In this document: piece by piece, positions 1,523-26,600 of the stretch
How the letters are laid out: each line of letters opens with the position of its first letter
Position numbering within the stretch: the stretch's first letter is position 1
Origin: Chromera velia
Lineage: Eukaryota; Sar; Chromeraceae
Length of the DNA stretch: 35,454 bases
NCBI GenBank assembly: GCA_018398765.1
Contig: JAHBMJ010000961.1
Coordinates: 2,501 to 37,954 of the forward strand
Direction: 5' to 3'
Program-made: the position numbers and the translations under genes
Notes under the pieces: model-generated
Told to the model about the DNA's origin: nothing
What the model saw: the letters and a program-made list of their open reading frames with translations, nothing else
Database searches by the model: none

Positions 1523-4500
1523 TCGTGCGTTAGTGGGCAGGTCGGTTGGTTGACACGCACCACAAGGGGAGACCAAGAAGGAAGGAAGGAAGGAAGGAAG
1601 ATTGAAAGAGACGTGCAAAAGACAATCAATCAATCCATGTTAGGTCAAGCAGACCGAGCAGGCGTGCATCAAGGATGTGTAGACAGACGCATGCTCGCCC
1701 ATGTGCTTGTCTCCCTGCTTCTTTCATTCAACCAACAGGTGTTGGGCACCTCCTCCTTCTTGGTCAGCACATTATTGTCGGTATCGTGTGACTGACACTA
1801 AACGATCTTGTATTCATTGTCTCTTGAATGAATGGATGGATGGATGGAGTGCAAGCAAGTAGGTCTTCATGCCGGTTCGAGACTTGTACAGGCAAACAAG
1901 CCAACAAGATAAGAAGAAAAGGAAGGAAAAGGAAAGGACGAGGAGTTTTTCGTTCAATGACCGGCGGAGTTTTTTTTCTTTCTTCCTTGTTTTGTTGAGC
2001 ACGGTCAGTCTTAACTGACTGCTTTTCTTGCTTCTTTTTGTTACGCCCGTGAAAAAAAAAATACAGAAAGACAGAACATGCGGCTTGTTTGCTTCCCCTT
2101 CCACCTCTCTCTCTCTCTCTCAACTTGTACACGCCGTCGGTCTCCTCACATGTCTGTCTTTCTGTCTGTAGTTTCCCTCCATCCATCCAGCTCGGCAGGG
2201 GGTGCTGCGCGTCCTGGTGGGTGATTGATTACAGACTCATGAATGTGTGCATGCAACCAAAAATGGTCTGCAAGCAAGCCAGCGCGTTTGCATGTGTGTA
2301 TGCATGCGTGTCCGTTGAACATTGGCCGACGTGCGAATGGCTGGCTGGAGTCGGCTGGCTGACTTGCTCTCCAGCTGGCAGCCCGATGTTTGTAGAGGAG
2401 TCGGATGAGCTCCAGTGGACATACGTGGGAAAGGGTAGCACTCGTTTGTGCACTTAGTCAGCCTGGGGTGGGTGGGGTAACGGGGGTGAGTGGCAGACTA
2501 GTAGTTTAAGTGGCCTGCCCTGAAGATGTTTACCGAGAAACTGGAAATGCGTGCATGTGATGACCCATGCATATATGCGTGCATGCACTTGTATCGATAT
2601 GTTGTGTTTGCGACGCACGCATGAAGGGACGTTTTAATTCCCTTCTAGCAGCCTGCTTGGCAGGCTTTTGCGTCCATGCAACTGATCTCAGAGGATTCTG
2701 TCAACTCCTCTGTATCGCTAAGGGTTGGGGGGGGGTCGATCGATGGGTGGCTGCTCCTCTTCATCATCACTGACTGGCAGGCAGGCTTGCCTGTGAGTCT
2801 AGCTGTGAGTTGAACACCGTCATCTGACTCACTCTTCCAGGACTCTTTCTTCAATTGATCGACTCGTAGTGCATCCAAATTTTTGCCTCCGATTTCTAAT
2901 TCCCCGCATGCAATTGCATGATCTAGTGCATGTTACTGGATGCTAGACTCAGGCTGGATGATAATTAAACGGATGAATTTTAAGGCAATGATTTAGCTGA
3001 ACTTTTTGAAATGAAATTATTAATATATATAATTATACACTTAGTCTAATTTAGATCGAAGTCTCTACATATGCCAGTGACTTTATTCTTGGAAATTATA
3101 AAGTTGGAATCAACCATAATTAAACTAGCTTTTTCAAAATTGATTGAACAACTTCTAGAACAACTTGAACCGTACTGTATATATCAGTTAATATTAGTTA
3201 TATATATGTGATGATGATGATGATGATTGAGGGTTAATGTGTAAATTGATGCAATGAACAACAATATATAATAACATTTTTTTATTATGAGTCTAAAAGC
3301 TAGAGCCTTTGAGCTGCCACTGGTAATTGTAATGATCCGCATGATTAGGATTGGGATTTATGTTTCAGACTAGTTCCGGGGTTGTCCCAAGGTCCACAGC
3401 CGGGGGACGGCTTAATTGTTTTGCTCATCTTCAGACTCTTCACACCAGGATTCTCGTGCTTTTCATTCCTAGTTTTATTTTATGGTTCTGCTCTTTTGGG
3501 CATGCATGCACCCGTAAGTACTAAAAATTGTGGAATCCTAGACGACCGGACAGAATATTCGTACAAAGCCACCAGCTTTAGTAGCCACCAGCTCATGCTC
3601 AGTCATGTCCGTTAAAAGGTGCAAGACCAGATTTGGTCTTCCTCTGCATATGCTTCCACAGCAGCCTGAGGGCGATCGGATGCTCCCTGAGAGCATGCTG
3701 CATGTATGTTACTCCACTTGCATGCCGCGGCTTCTCGCTCTCGATCGCCTTAATTGATCAAGGAAGGCGGTCCGGTTTCGATCAACGCACGCGTAAGAGA
3801 TCGTAAGAAACATCAGTCGATCAATCTATGCAAGGGACAGATCAAGGAGCCTAGCAAGGAGCTTCAAGAAAGTATAATCGAGACAGATCAAGAGGTAGAC
3901 AGCTGAGGCAAGAAAAAGATGAAGAAAAACGGAGGAAGAGGAAAAAGAAGTGAGGCTGAAAGAAAGAAAGAAAGAAAGAAAGAAAAGAAAGAAAGAAAGA
4001 AAGAAAGAGGCAGCGAGGCAGAAATAGAAAAAGAAACACTGAATCAACGAGGAACGGGAACACATATGTGTGTCAGAGAAGAAAGAAGACAGTCCTTTAC
4101 TTTTCCTTTCATGCACTCAGTCAGTGCCTCCCTCCCTCACTCACTCACTGTTCTCACGCAGTCAGTCAGAACAGACGAAAGTCAGACGATTCCCTCTACA
4201 TGCTTGACTCAGTCCGGCCATCTCATTTGAAGATCGAGGCTGTCTATCCGTCTGCCGAAGAGAAAAGAATCAGTCATGACCATTTGAAGTAAAAGCTTGA
4301 CGAAGAACCCATTCATAGAAAGCAACGACGTGAGTGAGTCCATCTAGCTGGCTGCATGTCATCAGATTCGATCGCACTGCAGGTCCCCGGAAAGACATTT
4401 CCGGGGCCCCCTTATTTGCAGACCGAACGACAGACGTACAGACAGAGTCAGAAGACACGCACGATCGTGCATGCGAAACACAATTCAGACAGCAGCATGA

Positions 4501-13233: not shown

Positions 13234-16046
13234 AAGAGAGAAGCTGTCCAAAAACGAAAGAGGAAGGAGAAAGCCGCAAGACGGAACCAAATCAACGGAC
13301 CACGTCGTTCTTTTCCCTTTTTCTTTTTCTTTCGACGAACACAAGCGGGCAAGGACGCAAACAGACTACACAGAACGCAGACAGACGAAATGGTTTCTTT
13401 CCCTCCATTTCTTCATGAACACAACAGACAAAAAGAAAGAAAGCAACAACGACAAAAGAACAGCAGACAGACAGACCAACGTATCAAATTGAGCTGCGCA
13501 TTCTACACCATACAAGAAAAAGAGAGAGCCACACAAGGATTCATTTGCTTGAGCTCTCCTCCCCGATGCGTTTCTCTTCTTGTCTGCTGCCTCTTTCAAC
13601 CTCCCCAAAAAGACGCACAGCCCCCCCCCCTGCCGGTGAAAAAAAAGAAAGAGAAACCCACCCACCCTCCCACCCACCCACCCGGAAAGACAGGCTTCCC
13701 TCCCAGCAGCTCCCCCCAAGGGACCACATGTCCACGCCCTTCGTGTATCTGCAGGTCGACCAGGTTCGGCAAAGGAGGGGAGGGGATGAACGGACAGATG
13801 AGTGAATGAATGTATGAATGAATGGATACATGAATAAATGAACGAATGAATGAACAAAGGGATGAGTGAATCAGTGAGTAAGAAGGACCGTGAGTGGAGA
13901 AAAAAAGATGCGATGCTGCGAGGAAAGAGAAGGAAGGAAGGAAGGATATAAGACAAAAGCGCGCAGGAGGGAGGGCATGGCTCGACTGCTTCTCTCGACG
14001 GTAGGAACTTGCTCTCTCTCTCTCTCTCTCTCTCTTTGTTGGGAGGGGACCAATGTTCGTTCGTTGAGCCTTCTTTCAACCGCAAAGAAAGAAAGAAAGC
14101 TGCGTGCCCGACTATCTGATTATCTGATTGAAGAAAGCACTTCACTGACGGACTTTGTGGACCCCAACAGAATCTCGGGGGCTCGGTACCTGCACACAGA
14201 GAGCAGTAGAGTGGGCGTTCCGTCTCTCTCTCTCTCCCCCCCCCTCTGTGTGTGTGTGTGTGTGTAGGAAGCACTAAGCAGAGAATGCCTGTCAGGCGGC
14301 TGGAGATACGGCTGCCTCCCTTTCGGCAAGAGAGTGAGTGAGGGATGAGGACGATATTGAAGGCCAAATCTGAAGTTGAGGAGAGGGAGAGAGGGGGAAC
14401 GATTTGGAGAGAGAGGACCTATGCATCGCAATTTGGGTGGTCACAAGAGTGAGTCGACAGGAGACAGACAGAGTCCCAACAGCCGGTGTTGAGGTGAGAG
14501 AATGAATGTGTCTGTGCATGAATGAACAGAAGAGAAGAGGGGATGAAGCAGACAACGTGCAAAAAAAAACACGCACCAACAGGTTGCGACGTATTCTGTA
14601 ACAAAATAAAACTATGGAATGAATAGAAAAAAACGAGACGCACCAACGGGTTGCGACGTAGTCCGTCAACGCAGGGTTGGGTCCTCCGTCGCTCTCTGCC
14701 TGTGCGACTGATCTCGCTAGACCGAAATCAGCCACCTTCACGAGACATTCGGAGTTCAGAAGAATGTTCGACGGTTTCATTCCCCTATGAAGGAGCTCTC
14801 CTGCACAGACAAACAGAAACATTCAATCAATCAATCAATCGATAAGTCAATCAATCAAACATGGACGGACGGAAAGAAGGAGAGATCCAACAACGACGTG
14901 CGTCAGTATGTGCGCAGAGAGAGAGAGGGGGGGGGAGGGAAGGCGGAGAGGAAGAGAAGAGAAATGGAGAAAAGAAAAAGATCAAGACCGACGGGCGGGG
15001 GGCAAGAGGACGGCAACGAGGAGTGAAGCGTCCTCCTCACTTTCCTTCTTTCTGTCTCCATTTCTCTGTTTTGCTGCCCTTTCCATGCCTGAGTGCATCT
15101 CACTGACCCGAGTGCATCTCACTGACCCGAGTGCATATACTTGAGTGACTTGAGTAGTTGATAGACGATGTGCTGCTTGTGAATCTCCTCCAAGATGTTG
15201 GCACGGATCGCCGCGTGCAGATCCGTCTCTGCGTCAATCCACAGGCAGGCATCACAAACGGAAAGAAAGAACATGAGGACGTACGTCTCTTCAAGGCCGT
15301 TTAACAATATGAAGCTGACGAGATATTCTCACAAAAGTGTGGCAAAAGAAGGTCACTGCAATTCGGTCTTCTGTGACAACAGTCGAGGGCTGTCTATGCA
15401 CTGATTGAGAGAGAAGGGAGAAGGGGGGATGGGCAAACAGCTTTCCCGGGGTCTGTCTCCTCTTGTCTTGGACGTCACTCGTTCCCTGCCGCTCTTGTCA
15501 GACGCAGGCCCAGCATTACCACACGCCACAGACGTTAGGAAACACGCAGAAAGACGGAAAGCAGGCATGCCCACTTCCTTGCTTGACACACTCACTCACC
15601 CATGTAGTCAAAGACCAGATAAATGTCTCTATCGTTGTCTGCTTTCAACACGTTGAGCATTCTGACGATGTTCTCATGGCCCTTCACCTCTTGAAGAAAC
15701 ATGATCTCCCGAAATGTTCGTTGTGCATCTGTCGCGTTTTGAAAAGCATCGAAGATTTTTTTCAAAGCGACGATTTCTGTGGTCTCTCTGTCGATGGACT
15801 TCCACACAATCCCATAAGCCTGCACGACGAGTCGGAAGGAGGAAAGGATGAGAGCAGAGCTGTCCAGAATCTTGAAGAAAGAAGAAAAGAAACAGGAACT
15901 GGGGCCACATCGGAAAGGGTCGGGAAGAGGAAACGAAAGACAGAGGTTACTTGTATATCCACACACACTTTCTGACTTACTCTCTTTCCCAACTTCTGCA
16001 CGATTTCATACTTCCGCAAGACGTGCTCATCTACTTCCTCACTCAT
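11757..16046 (-). CDS. ERK7: ERK7/MAPK15-like MAP kinase, frameshifted and with altered catalytic residues
   Basis: Ten exons: 16046-15981, 15819-15600, 15228-15127, 14800-14644, 14189-14154, 13748-13682, 13185-13056, 12739-12650, 12258-12178 and 11991-11757. ERK7/MAPK15 is an atypical MAP kinase tied to basal bodies, cilia and, in Toxoplasma, the conoid. The family is clear from [42 protein letters not shown] (154-156), activation loop [14 protein letters not shown] (TDY 175-177) and a C-terminal stretch [13 protein letters not shown]. Lys42 is the beta-3 lysine. Three defects are seen. The glycine loop reads LGKRAYG instead of GxGxxG. The HRD motif reads HRG (134-136), removing the catalytic Asp. 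Exon 6 lacks about ten bases after WSLG, which shifts the frame and truncates the product to about 220 residues. All splice phases otherwise agree, so either the gene decayed recently or the sequence has errors. Confidence 0.85.
13199..13234. repeat. AC and GA dinucleotide microsatellite in ERK7 intron 6
   Basis: An AC run passes directly into a GA run, just upstream (in gene orientation) of the exon 7 acceptor. Confidence 0.85.
13803..13868. repeat. AATG tetranucleotide repeat in ERK7 intron 5
   Basis: Imperfect AATG/AATA units lie within intron 5 of the kinase gene. They produce the repetitive reading frames seen there on the - strand. Confidence 0.8.
14571..14661 (-). repeat. Duplicated 3' end of ERK7 exon 4
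   Basis: The last bases of exon 4 and its donor (from the TAC codon of TDY through GTGCGT) recur about 70 bases into the intron with one mismatch in the core 22 bases. The intronic copy is preceded by a good acceptor (TTTTGTTACAG) and ends in the same donor. Read in the exon frame it encodes T-E-Y-V-A-T-C-W, against T-D-Y-V-A-T-R-W in the exon. Confidence 0.75.
15090..15140 (-). repeat. Tandem duplication of the ERK7 exon 3 donor
   Basis: A 19-base unit spanning the end of exon 3 and its donor (ATGCACTCGGGTCAGTGAG on the gene strand) is repeated, giving a second donor 19 bases downstream. Use of the second donor would add an in-frame TGA, so only the first gives the family sequence. Confidence 0.8.
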
Positions 16047-18268: not shown

Positions 18269-19783
18269 TTATACGCCAACAGTGCACTCGTGGTTGTGGC
18301 TGGGGATGTTCAGGGTAGTCAGTGTGGCCGTCGTCTGTCCTCCCTTCTGTCCCATCTGGGTAGTCTCTGTGCCCAACCCTGCAGACCCACCATTCCCCAA
18401 AACAGCACGACCGCGCAAATCTGGAAGCCCGAAAGTCGTACGCCCATCCCCCCCGTAGGTCGTTCCAAGAATCGAGAACAGGGCTGAGTTACTGCTAATG
18501 GGAAGAAGCTGACCCTCACACAAAGCCCATCCACGAGGGGCGAAGTTGCCCGCAAACAGAGCCACCTGACCGATTGTGGGGTCTGAAATGCTCAAGCTTC
18601 GTCTCTCTCCCGTCTCCTTCCCGTCCTCCTGAAGGAGACGGTTCCTGCTTGGGTAAATTCCTTCGAGTGCAATGATGTAGTTCAGAGTCGTGTACGGATC
18701 CGACAGAGAGAAGGACTGAGACCCCCCGACAATACCGACAGAGCACCCTCCTGGGGGGATCTCCAGAGGCCCCCCCGCCCCTGTCGAAGTAGACGAAGAG
18801 GGAACGGCAGTGGCGCCTCCGTCACAGCTGCACACTCCGGGAGGACCTGCAGGGAAAGTGGATGGATCGACAGATGCAATGCAGGGAGGTGAGCACGGCA
18901 ACGCATAGTCAACCTGAGTTCTATCAATTGGCACGCAAGATTCTGGGTCTCTTTTGAGGGTCTCTCTTTTACTGCAACCCAAAATACTACCGACTCACAA
19001 AAACAATTCTGTGTATTTCAACGTCAATGGAGAGTGGCGGAACTTTGCCAGAAAAGAAAGCGCCGTTGTTCTCAAGAGGGCCTCGCAGTCCAGCGTCAAA
19101 AGCATTTCCAAATCAAGGTCAGTCGTCTTTTGCCAGGAGGACCGTTCACTTAAGGCTACCACCTTCACTCGACTCAAAGTGAGCAGAACAAGAAAGGTAA
19201 GTCTAAAGAAGTTACCTGGCGGTCCCTGGGGCCCTCTGGGTCCTGGAGGTCCCTCCCGGCAGCCAGTGCAGTCTCCTCCCTCGTCAACGCTTTGAGTCGC
19301 CAGAGTAGCAGCAGACTGTGCGACGGGCCCTTCAGGGGCAGGGGGGGTTTGTGTGAGCTCGGGGGAGATGGCGGCACCAGTAGGGGCAGTGTCGAAGTCA
19401 GGAGGTGGTGCAGGGACCCCCATGGGGTCTTGAGGGGGCGGCGCAGTTTGTGCTCCCCCGAGAGTTGCCTGTGCTGTCTTTGCCCATGCTTCGAGTTCAA
19501 ACAACCTCTTCATGAGTGCGTCCATCCCCTTTTCTAGGAACACGACGCGCTCCTCTAGTTTCTCCTGGTCACTTGACAGAATGCCAAGAGGGTCCAAGTC
19601 AGGCCCATCCCCCACGATGTCATCCATCAGTCTTTGAGTCCTGCACCCCAAACCTGTGCAGGAGTCACGATCATCTTCGTCGTCGTCACCTCTGCGGAAA
19701 AGAGATCTGCTCAGGTCGCCGATGCCCTCACACAGAGCGAACAGAACGGCACTCGCAAGCAGGACACACAGCAAGCTCCGCAT
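18269..19783 (-). CDS. Secreted coiled-coil/collagen-like/tail-collar fusion protein
   Basis: Exons 19783-19216 and 18846-18269, with donor GTAACT, acceptor CCCTGCAG and phase 1, give 381 residues in frame. Residues 1-20 form a signal peptide. An acidic Cys-containing segment follows (33-47), then a likely coiled coil (about 69-100) and a Pro-rich linker (110-160). Residues 178-192 are five perfect Gly-X-Y triplets flanked by CxxC and CxC. Residues 231-261 match the end of a bacterial collar unit (TLNYIIALEGIYPSRN). Residues 280-340 are a canonical tail-collar domain (PF07484 type) with GNFAPRGWALCEGQLLPIS, FSILGTTYGGDGRTTFGLPD and LRGR. It ends in the usual SHNH motif. In bacteria and phages such domains sit in trimeric tail fibres and microcystin-dependent-type proteins. 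The coiled coil plus collagen-like stretch fits a secreted trimeric fibre. Bacterial origin of the collar domain is inferred; the intron and signal peptide show it is a nuclear gene. Confidence 0.85.
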
Positions 19784-23686: not shown

Positions 23687-26600
23687 AAGAATTGCGGCTG
23701 CATGTACGGGAGGAAGTATGAGGAAAAGTGCGACCTGTGTTACTCAGTGTACATGCAGAAAAGAGACAGACAGAGACGGGAAGACTTCATAGAGACAGAA
23801 GCACGAGAAGAGAAAGAGGAAGTATAGAGGCTCCTCGCAATCCTGGCCGTCCTTTCCATACTTCTGCGCACGTGCAACCGCCTCAATTGTTCACGTCTGT
23901 CTTCACACACTGCCTTCCCTTCTGCCCATGCTTCGACACACAACAGGTCTTCTTTCTCTTGATTCCACGAGCCATGTTTTGCGTTTCCACCCATTCTCTT
24001 CGCTTCTCCTTTCAATTTATTTACTTTTTATGTATGCGTTGATGCTCGTTCACGTTCTTGGCTGCAGGGAACTCTCTCTTCAACCGGGTCCACCAGGTTT
24101 TTCAGCGACGCCGCTGAAACACCAACCAACTGTTCGATGCAAGAGACTGATGCAGACAGACAGAGGCCCAGGGATGCATCCATAAAATTGAAGGAACGAA
24201 GGAACGGCCTCAGGGGGGGAGAGCGTTGGGAGACAGGGACAAGGGCGTGGGAAGGCGGGAGGGAAGAGGGGTTGGACCCATTCCCGTGCAAAGAAAAGAA
24301 AAGAAAAGAAAAGAAACGATGCAGCGTCGTCAGCTCATCCACACCATCCGAAGGTTCACAGCAGGCATCACTCACGTTCAAGGGGTTGAGTGGGGAACCC
24401 GCATTCGCCGCCCGCTCTGCAGTTCGTGTTTTGCCCTAGCTAGCTCGACCAATCCATCAGATCATTGACTCATGAGTTGCACGGGTGTCCTGCACACATG
24501 GAGAGAGAGACTTGTCTGCAACGAAGAGGAATTTTGTCATGCAGCATGCAAGAGACTGATGAGGGGGACGTTCCTGACGTGTCTGATCTTCTGGAGGAGC
24601 AGGCCGTGATTGCACCAAAGGGCGGTGGCGGCTCGAGAGGGGATGGGGGGGTCCGCGGCTGGAACCTTTCGGGAGTTAGAGCGCGCCCTCGGAACCGACA
24701 GAGCCAAAGCCGCTGGCTGGTGTTGATCTGGATCGTTGTCTTTCGGGCATGTGCAGGGAGGGAGCGTCTCTCCAGGGAAGAGGGGTTGGACCAATTCGGG
24801 TGCAAAGAAAAGAAAAGAAAAGAAACGATGCAGCGTCGTCAACTCATCCACACCATCCGAAGGTTCACAGCAGGCATCACTCACGTTCAAGGGGTTGAGT
24901 GGGGGACCCGCAGTCGCCGCCCGCTCTGCAGTTCGTGTTTTGCCCTAGCTAGCTCGACCAATCCATCAGATCATTGACTTATGAGTTGCACGGGTGTCCT
25001 GCACACATGGAGAGAGAGACTTGTCTGCAACGAAGTGGAACTGTATCATGCAGCATGCAAGAGACTGATGAGGGGGACGTTCCTGACGTGTCTGAGCGTC
25101 TGGAGGAGCAGGCCGTGATTGCACCAAAGGGCGGTGGCGGCTCGAGAGGGGATGGGGGGGTCCGCGGCTGGAACCTTTCGGGAGTTAGAGCGCGCCCTCG
25201 GAACCGACAGAGCCAAAGCCGCTGGCTGGTGTTGATCTGGATCGTTGTCTTTCGGGCATGTGCAGGGAGGGAGCGTCTCTCCAGGGAAGAGGGGTTGGAC
25301 CAATTCGGGTGCAAAGAAAAGAAAAGAAAAGAAACGATGCAGCGTCGTCAGCTCATCCACACCATCCGAAGGTTCACAGCAGGCATCACTCACGTTCAAG
25401 GGGTTGAGTGGGGAACCCGCATTCGCCGCCCGCTCTGCAGTTCGTGTTTTGCCCTAGCTAGCTCGACCAATCCATCAGATCATTGACTCATGAGTTGCAC
25501 GGGTGTCCTGCACACATGGAGAGAGAGACTTGTCTGCAACGAAGAGGAATTTTGTCACGCAGCATGCAAGAGACTGATGAGGGGGACGTTCCTGACGTGT
25601 CTGAGCGTCTGGAGGAGCAGGCCGTGATTGCACCAAAGGGCGGTGGCGGCTCGAGAGGGGATGGGGGGGTCCGCGGCTGGAACCTTTCGGGAGTTAGAGC
25701 GCGCCCTCGGAACCGACAGAGCCAAAGCCGCTGGCTGGTGTTGATCTGGATCGTTGTCTTTCGGGCATATGCAGGGAGGGAGCGTCTCTCCAGGCTTCTC
25801 CGCCGACAGCGCCCCCGACCCGAAGTTCCTAAGGAGAGGGAATCAAGGAGTGGAAGAAGATAAGCTAGAAGATAAGCTTGAACAGAGAAGATAACTTTTA
25901 AAGAAGAAGAATGAGACCACGAAGAAGTCTAAGAAGACTTCGGTCCTTTGTACAGAGTCGTTCAACCAAATTTTATGGGACTGCAAGACCTCCGCACCCG
26001 TCATCACTTCAAATGAATTCTGCGGCAATTTCTGCCCGTACCAAGTGCCACAGACCCAAATTTCAATGTGAAAGGGTGAATTTCATTCCCCTTTGTGCCG
26101 TGAAATTTTATAATTTATTACATTTAGGACCATCACCATCATATACTATGTTAAATAACGTTAAATTGAAGTAGCAGAAGTACAGCTATGATTTACTAAC
26201 ATATATTACTATGACTTGCCTAGTGATCTAGCTAATGATTTGCATGATTGAGAGTCATGTTGAGATTATTATCACTGTTGAATAGTTATGATCTAGGTTA
26301 TAATTATAGTCACCAGAGTCCGAGTCCAAATCGTAGCCTAGCTATAGTTAGCTAGCTCTTCATAACGTACTAACTAGTAGTAATGTGGCCAAGAAAGGAA
26401 AAAAAAAATGTTTAGGGATAATTAGAAATTACTAGATCAAGAAATCATTTGAAATCTAGTTTGAAACAATAATCTTAGTAATTCCTATAGACATACCTAG
26501 GTTTATTCATATCGATCTCTTATTCGTTCTAGTATTCGATCATCTCTAGGATCATCTCAGCAAGCCTGACTCCTGAGGGGTGAAGGACTTGAGTCTTACA

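Follow-up and report, generated by a model that had tools for sequence, protein, structure and literature searches.

The window, a stretch of 35,454 nt from the genome of Chromera velia (contig JAHBMJ010000961.1), carries on its minus strand (18269..19783) a gene of two exons whose predicted 381-residue product ends in a single tail-collar domain, the two halves of which are circularly permuted. A second gene of this genome and proteins of eight bacterial genomes share this order, with the cut at the same site. With a probability of roughly 0.6, the window gene encodes a secreted, trimeric adhesin or fibre in which the permuted collar head is reversed on its stalk.

Gene model and stalk of the predicted protein

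Exon 1 (19216..19783) encodes a signal-like leader, a coiled coil, a Pro-rich stretch and the first Gly-X-Y triplets. The following GT-AG intron (18847..19215, 369 bp, phase 1) interrupts the Gly-X-Y run, and exon 2 (18269..18846) carries the end of this run and the entire permuted collar in a single open frame; all of these features, and those given below for the same protein, are on the minus strand. The intron has two neighbouring acceptors, both in frame, of which the one at 18847 preserves the Gly-X-Y register.

The leader (residues 1–20, 19724..19783) has a strongly hydrophobic core at residues 4–15, and every later 19-residue segment of the protein has a mean hydropathy of 1.02 or less. 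The coiled coil (residues 70–112, 19448..19576) was located by its heptad score, which was equalled in none of 200 shuffles. The Gly-X-Y run (residues 170–197, 18824..19276 with the intron included) consists of six triplets by direct count and is bracketed by two cysteine pairs, CTGC before and CSC after; an equal number of triplets occurred in 3 of 2000 shuffles. Separate scans of the exon-1 frame, containing the Gly-X-Y triplets up to the intron, and of the exon-2 frame gave no Pfam match to Collagen (PF01391) up to E 1; a search of the same two frames against NCBIfam for the MAT N-terminal domain had no family match within that limit either. Judged from these features, the product is probably secreted and appears suited to form a trimer.

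The assembly that carries the window comprises 178 Mb in 4040 contigs, a eukaryotic size. It contains 11 alveolin-type stretches (best E 1.2e-8; one of 14 control genomes, a bacterium, had a match) and 58 light-harvesting stretches (again one of 14 control genomes with a match, a cyanobacterium). The preliminary description had proposed a nuclear gene of two exons, closing at 381 residues and joining a leader, a coiled coil and Gly-X-Y triplets to collar motifs at the C-terminal end. This proposal is borne out by the intron, by the size and content of the assembly, by the simple scores and triplet count given above, and by a match of the protein to the collar family PF07484 (E = 4.4e-28, 97.4 bits against a cut-off of 24), which detects a single collar domain.

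Elsewhere in the window, pieces of a protein kinase gene, which we take to read like a MAP kinase, lie downstream of the collar gene (14292-15966, minus strand). At about 24465-25863, a unit of ~509 bp is apparently repeated head-to-tail, with near-identical ORFs at 24465, 24974 and 25483; the tandem-repeat search covered periods up to 500, and this unit is absent from its list.

A permuted collar domain and its paralogue

The usual order of a collar domain is N-terminal half, variable stretch, C-terminal half, as in MdpB-type proteins, the ordinary-order collar proteins of tandem bacterial operons. No full collar in this order is present in the window protein, where the C-terminal half is placed first, followed by a linker and the N-terminal half, without the variable stretch. 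The C-terminal half (residues 224–258, 18641..18745) has the layout GGSQ..PY..NYIIAL.GI.PSRN and is matched by its half-domain HMM at residues 226–258 (E = 9.9e-18). The linker that connects the two natural termini (residues 259–280, 18575..18640) holds the sequence RLLQE. The N-terminal half (residues 281–375, 18290..18574) has the layout IGQVALF...SHNH, is matched by its HMM at residues 282–376 (E = 2.8e-44) as well as by PF07484, and ends with SHNH. Six residues further on the chain stops, with the new C-terminus ECTVGV (18272..18289), whose Cys377 is a candidate partner of Cys224. Both halves and their junction lie within one uninterrupted exon.

The C-terminal half had previously been taken for the end of another collar unit lying before this one. 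It belongs to the one domain present, moved to the front, since no front to a 'first unit' and no tail to a 'second unit' were found; the window collar is one domain in circularly permuted order. An AlphaFold2 monomer model of the permuted domain was poor (pLDDT 49, pTM 0.25), and that of an ordinary-order control was equally so (51 and 0.27), which may be expected because these chains would fold as trimers. In the open-licence papers searched we found no description of a permuted tail collar, and nothing that links Chromera with a tail collar.

When the genome was searched with the profile of the collar family, five matching stretches turned up, distributed over four loci. One of the paralogues (C3680) can be spliced from four exons (35363-35591, 36159-36319, 37165-37294 and 38109-38362), giving a product with a signal-like leader, strong heptads, a permuted collar and a stop. 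Its half-domain matches (C-half 105–137, N-half 161–253) have the order and cut of the window protein, and the predicted protein aligns with the window gene in one piece over the junction (residues 97–255, 50%, E 9.3e-41, no stop). The three introns of C3680, one of them within the C-half and one within the N-half, are laid out differently from that of the window gene. Its chain stops five residues past the second His position, matching the place of the window stop, and of the HxH motif, which may act here as a metal site, it retains a single His (SNFH). Outside the leader, the only cysteines of C3680 are Cys103 and Cys254, one at each domain end, and their places are occupied in the window protein by Cys224 and Cys377.

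Similarity between the two proteins extends into the linker (R.L.ED in both), where RLLQE of the window protein (residues 259–263, 18640-18626) aligns with RRLEE of C3680 (residues 138–142). In each of the two proteins the linker site is the sole match to RxLx[EDQ], an apicomplexan export/cleavage motif. Two further paralogues have collars in the ordinary order, one with a signal-like leader and two exons (C3897) and one with a coiled-coil-like stretch (C605). The circular permutation and these three paralogues are additions to the preliminary description. A separate feature of C3680 (L016, about 3299-3575) is that CAGTACATCATCGCACTCGAGGTCGG, comprising the end of its C-half exon and the splice donor, is present in three copies, one at the exon end itself and two within the intron that follows.

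Bacterial counterparts and possible origin of the permuted order

Proteins with the order C-N were found in eight bacterial genomes (L042, L047, L174, L193, L202, L231, L233 and L234), which are placed in Bacteroidota: the L042 and L047 records are named Bacteroidetes and Bacteroidales, and the remaining six were sampled within the phylum or the order to which the genome of L047 belongs, or within the order of a further genome of this phylum (G394). All eight proteins end 5–7 residues past the second His. We propose a permuted-collar group, defined by C-half, linker, N-half and a stop at most seven residues past the second His, which comprises the window protein, C3680 and the proteins of these eight genomes. 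Against a bacterial profile, the permuted proteins scored E 9.1e-77 or better versus 8.0e-48 for the best other match, with two of the five permuted proteins being among the rows that built the profile.

Two of the five bacterial permuted proteins that were scanned (L042 and L202) exceed the cut-off for Collagen (PF01391), and in both the permuted collar is combined with a signal-like leader and a stalk of Gly-X-Y triplets. The supposition that stalk and collar were first joined in a eukaryote is not supported. The bacterial kinship of the collar, which had also been supposed, is supported: the closest rows among those compared are from Bacteroidota (69% over 126 columns; from the bacterial scan the best 80 of at least 581 matches were kept). 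In L042 (3027-4760) and L047 (1853-3553), a gene that reads like that of a subtilase-like secreted protein follows the permuted gene.

The orders of the collar-bearing frames in 150 loci (L019-L168) were N-C 283, N 23, C 1, C-N 2, CNCNCN 1 and NCNCNCNC 1. Over L019-L210, counted with four repeats left out, four of our own proteins added and a stricter N-half threshold, they were N-C 355, N 25, C 1, C-N 7, of which five were bacterial and two our own, plus four longer chains, and L211-L242 gave N-C 50, N 1, C-N 5 (two refetched) and CNCNCN 2 (both refetched). Genome samples, each including its centre genome, were searched with the permuted query at thresholds of E 1e-30 to 1e-50. Confirmed in-frame C-N proteins occurred in 3 of 395 genomes from the phylum of G001, 2 of 295 from its order and 5 of 123 from the order of G394, counts that are no rates because G001 and G394 were chosen for their permuted proteins, the samples overlap, thresholds vary and only part of the candidates in each genome was scored. 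There were none among 246 genomes from the phylum of G003, apart from a mixed chain in G003 itself, and none among 398 from the phylum of G1025, where all 13 listed matches read through stops, as expected of gene pairs. Two other candidates were set aside: G169 (L196) seemed permuted when the genomes were searched but has the order NCNCNC, and a protein of a Planctomycetaceae record (L073, 2159-5377) carries a leader-like stretch, soon followed by C-N-C-N-C and, much later, by a further N-half, which agrees cleanly with neither of the two orders.

Collar genes stand three in tandem at five annotated plasmid loci (L019, L020, L021, L023 and L025), separated by gaps of 9-46 bp and encoding proteins of about 160–180 residues each, and tandem collar units fused within single proteins also exist (L160, L196 and L205). 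Of the 73 plasmid records matched 28, and of the 303 phage records 1, had a place where the permuted query is covered to 80% or more. Seven of these records were opened; in five the match crosses the boundary of two genes, in one it lies within a single gene in two pieces (H38) and one is unannotated (L024). Losing one stop and one start would join the back of one collar gene to the front of the next, so tandem genes with such small gaps provide a one-step route to a permuted head. The half-domain matches are separated by 6–8 residues in the bacterial proteins versus 23 in both algal proteins, and the short bacterial linkers would fit the junction of adjacent tandem genes. A tentative scenario, to which we give less weight than to the fibre itself, is that the collar was turned round on its stalk by way of tandem genes, probably repeatedly, and that the algal lineage came to have two such genes with disulfide-stapled termini and an outermost loop formed from the former termini, which may bind a target or undergo cleavage by a protease (RxLxE is conserved).

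Alternatively, the permuted domain may have been taken over ready-made from a Bacteroidota bacterium that already possessed leader, stalk and permuted collar, a possibility that we regard as real, if rather doubtful. The L042 and L202 proteins have just this architecture, and a single clade of the ten permuted rows was not rejected (p-AU 0.154; 0.121 for seven rows). Other single-clade constraints gave p 0.0275 for the eight bacterial rows in a 50-row tree, 0.138 for five bacterial rows in a 95-row tree, 0.339 and 0.294 for the window row with C3680, and 0.158 for the three eukaryotic rows, so that the p values would favour neither one nor several origins firmly. Against a ready-made transfer, the 50-row tree groups the window row with two Bacteroidota genes of the ordinary order (98/93, starred), along its starred branches the permuted label must change four times or more, no starred set of the 95-row tree holds the window row, and the algal and bacterial linkers differ in length. 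Both trees are based on 126 columns and are poorly resolved, their bootstrap had not settled, and C3680 and C3897 are on long branches. The alignment kept 326 of 362 units after gappy and identical rows were dropped, 95 of these 326 entering the first tree; the second, of 50 rows, took 47 from the first and added three permuted rows, with long L114 rows skipped. C-half fragments were left out of the model input, the alignment having placed them over the N-half, and the C605 paralogue is absent from both trees.

It is improbable that the window domain is a remnant of two tandem units, the first without its front and the second without its back, in a decaying gene with no working head. The tandem plasmid genes would supply the material for such a remnant, and the domain could span a junction like those of the fused units. 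However, order and cut are shared, in open frames, by two paralogues that lie on separate contigs and are about 50% identical, and the order is kept in the eight bacterial genomes. The permuted domains of the two algal genes differ by a dN of 0.51, well below a saturated dS of 2.9, which fits purifying selection.

Still less probable is an incomplete gene model, in which an extra exon would add a C-half and the head would be an ordinary one with an additional C-half in front. The genome does have introns, the model was predicted from the genome alone, and GT dinucleotides lie near the stop. However, no C-half exon was seen by eye in the three minus-strand frames of 18330-14500, 3.8 kb downstream, a search that a short or divergent exon could escape. 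C3680 stops at the same place despite its different intron layout, and the stop follows the second His after 6 residues in the window protein, 5 in C3680 and 5–7 in the bacterial proteins. Collar domains occur mainly in bacteria and viruses, but contamination or a mis-assembled bacterial insert is scarcely credible given one intron in the window gene and three in C3680, including one inside each half, and an identity of the window protein to the rows compared of at most 72% in the N-half and 66% in the C-half.

Proposed fibre and comparison with known collar proteins

In the fibre that we favour, the chain would enter the secretory pathway, the coiled coil and the short Cys-bracketed Gly-X-Y segment would drive trimerisation, and the chain would finish in the single, circularly permuted collar head. 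The stalk would attach where the receptor-binding tip of phages sits in ordinary collars, and the 22-residue linker would close the natural termini, which in the ordinary order would face the stalk. With the stalk at the place of the tip, the natural termini closed and the chain ending six residues past SHNH, the head should be reversed. This would place the linker loop outermost, and stalk and C-terminus may be stapled together by the two cysteines at the new termini. The fibre would probably serve to attach the alga to bacteria or to other cells, or form part of the cell coat. The adhesive role is suggested by the family, which includes phage fibres and a collar-domain protein that, according to PMC4949626, a marine bacterium secretes in co-culture with a cyanobacterium.

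The swapped order is also found in a few bacterial proteins, suggesting that the same head can be mounted on a stalk the other way round. If the head is truly reversed, it would expose a surface unlike that of known collar fibres, and the tandem bacterial genes would give it a simple origin. A natural circular permutation of a 'knitted' domain puts ideas on the formation of such folds to a strong test. For the alga, the gene would mean that the secretome of a eukaryote near the apicomplexans has gained a part of a phage-type adhesin.

The nearest relatives of the window protein in domain order are the eight Bacteroidota proteins, which share its order and cut and have a signal-like N-terminus by eye. 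They differ in their shorter linker (6–8 versus 23 residues) and in having no Cys beside the cut. In all five that were scanned, the N-terminal region is weakly similar, below the cut-off, to the N-terminal domain of the Bdellovibrio MAT fibre; a term count of the main text of the MAT fibre paper gave neither 'collar' nor 'permut' (PMC10769870). Ordinary 'tail fiber protein' or MdpB-type proteins have both half-domains and the core motifs in common with the window protein, and reach up to 69% identity over 126 columns among the rows compared. By its domain listing, protein OLV19 of the Organic Lake virophage, an element associated with eukaryotes, combines collagen-like repeats and a tail collar domain in one protein (PMC3671162).

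The likeness to T4 gp12 and gp37 lies in the collar, by sequence to the gp12 structures 1ocy, 1pdi and 5iv5. For gp12, PMC3004832 describes a domain in which three chains are 'knitted' into one another. In gp37, the collar fold is formed by residues 811–881 and 1010–1026, with the elongated distal domain (882–1009) inserted between them (PMC6957217). In phage collar fibres of this kind, the chain runs from the stalk through the N-terminal half and the inserted receptor-binding tip to the C-terminal strand. Both T4 proteins have the ordinary order, and gp37 bears its large tip where the permuted protein is cut, the permuted cut being taken as the same place as the site of tip insertion.
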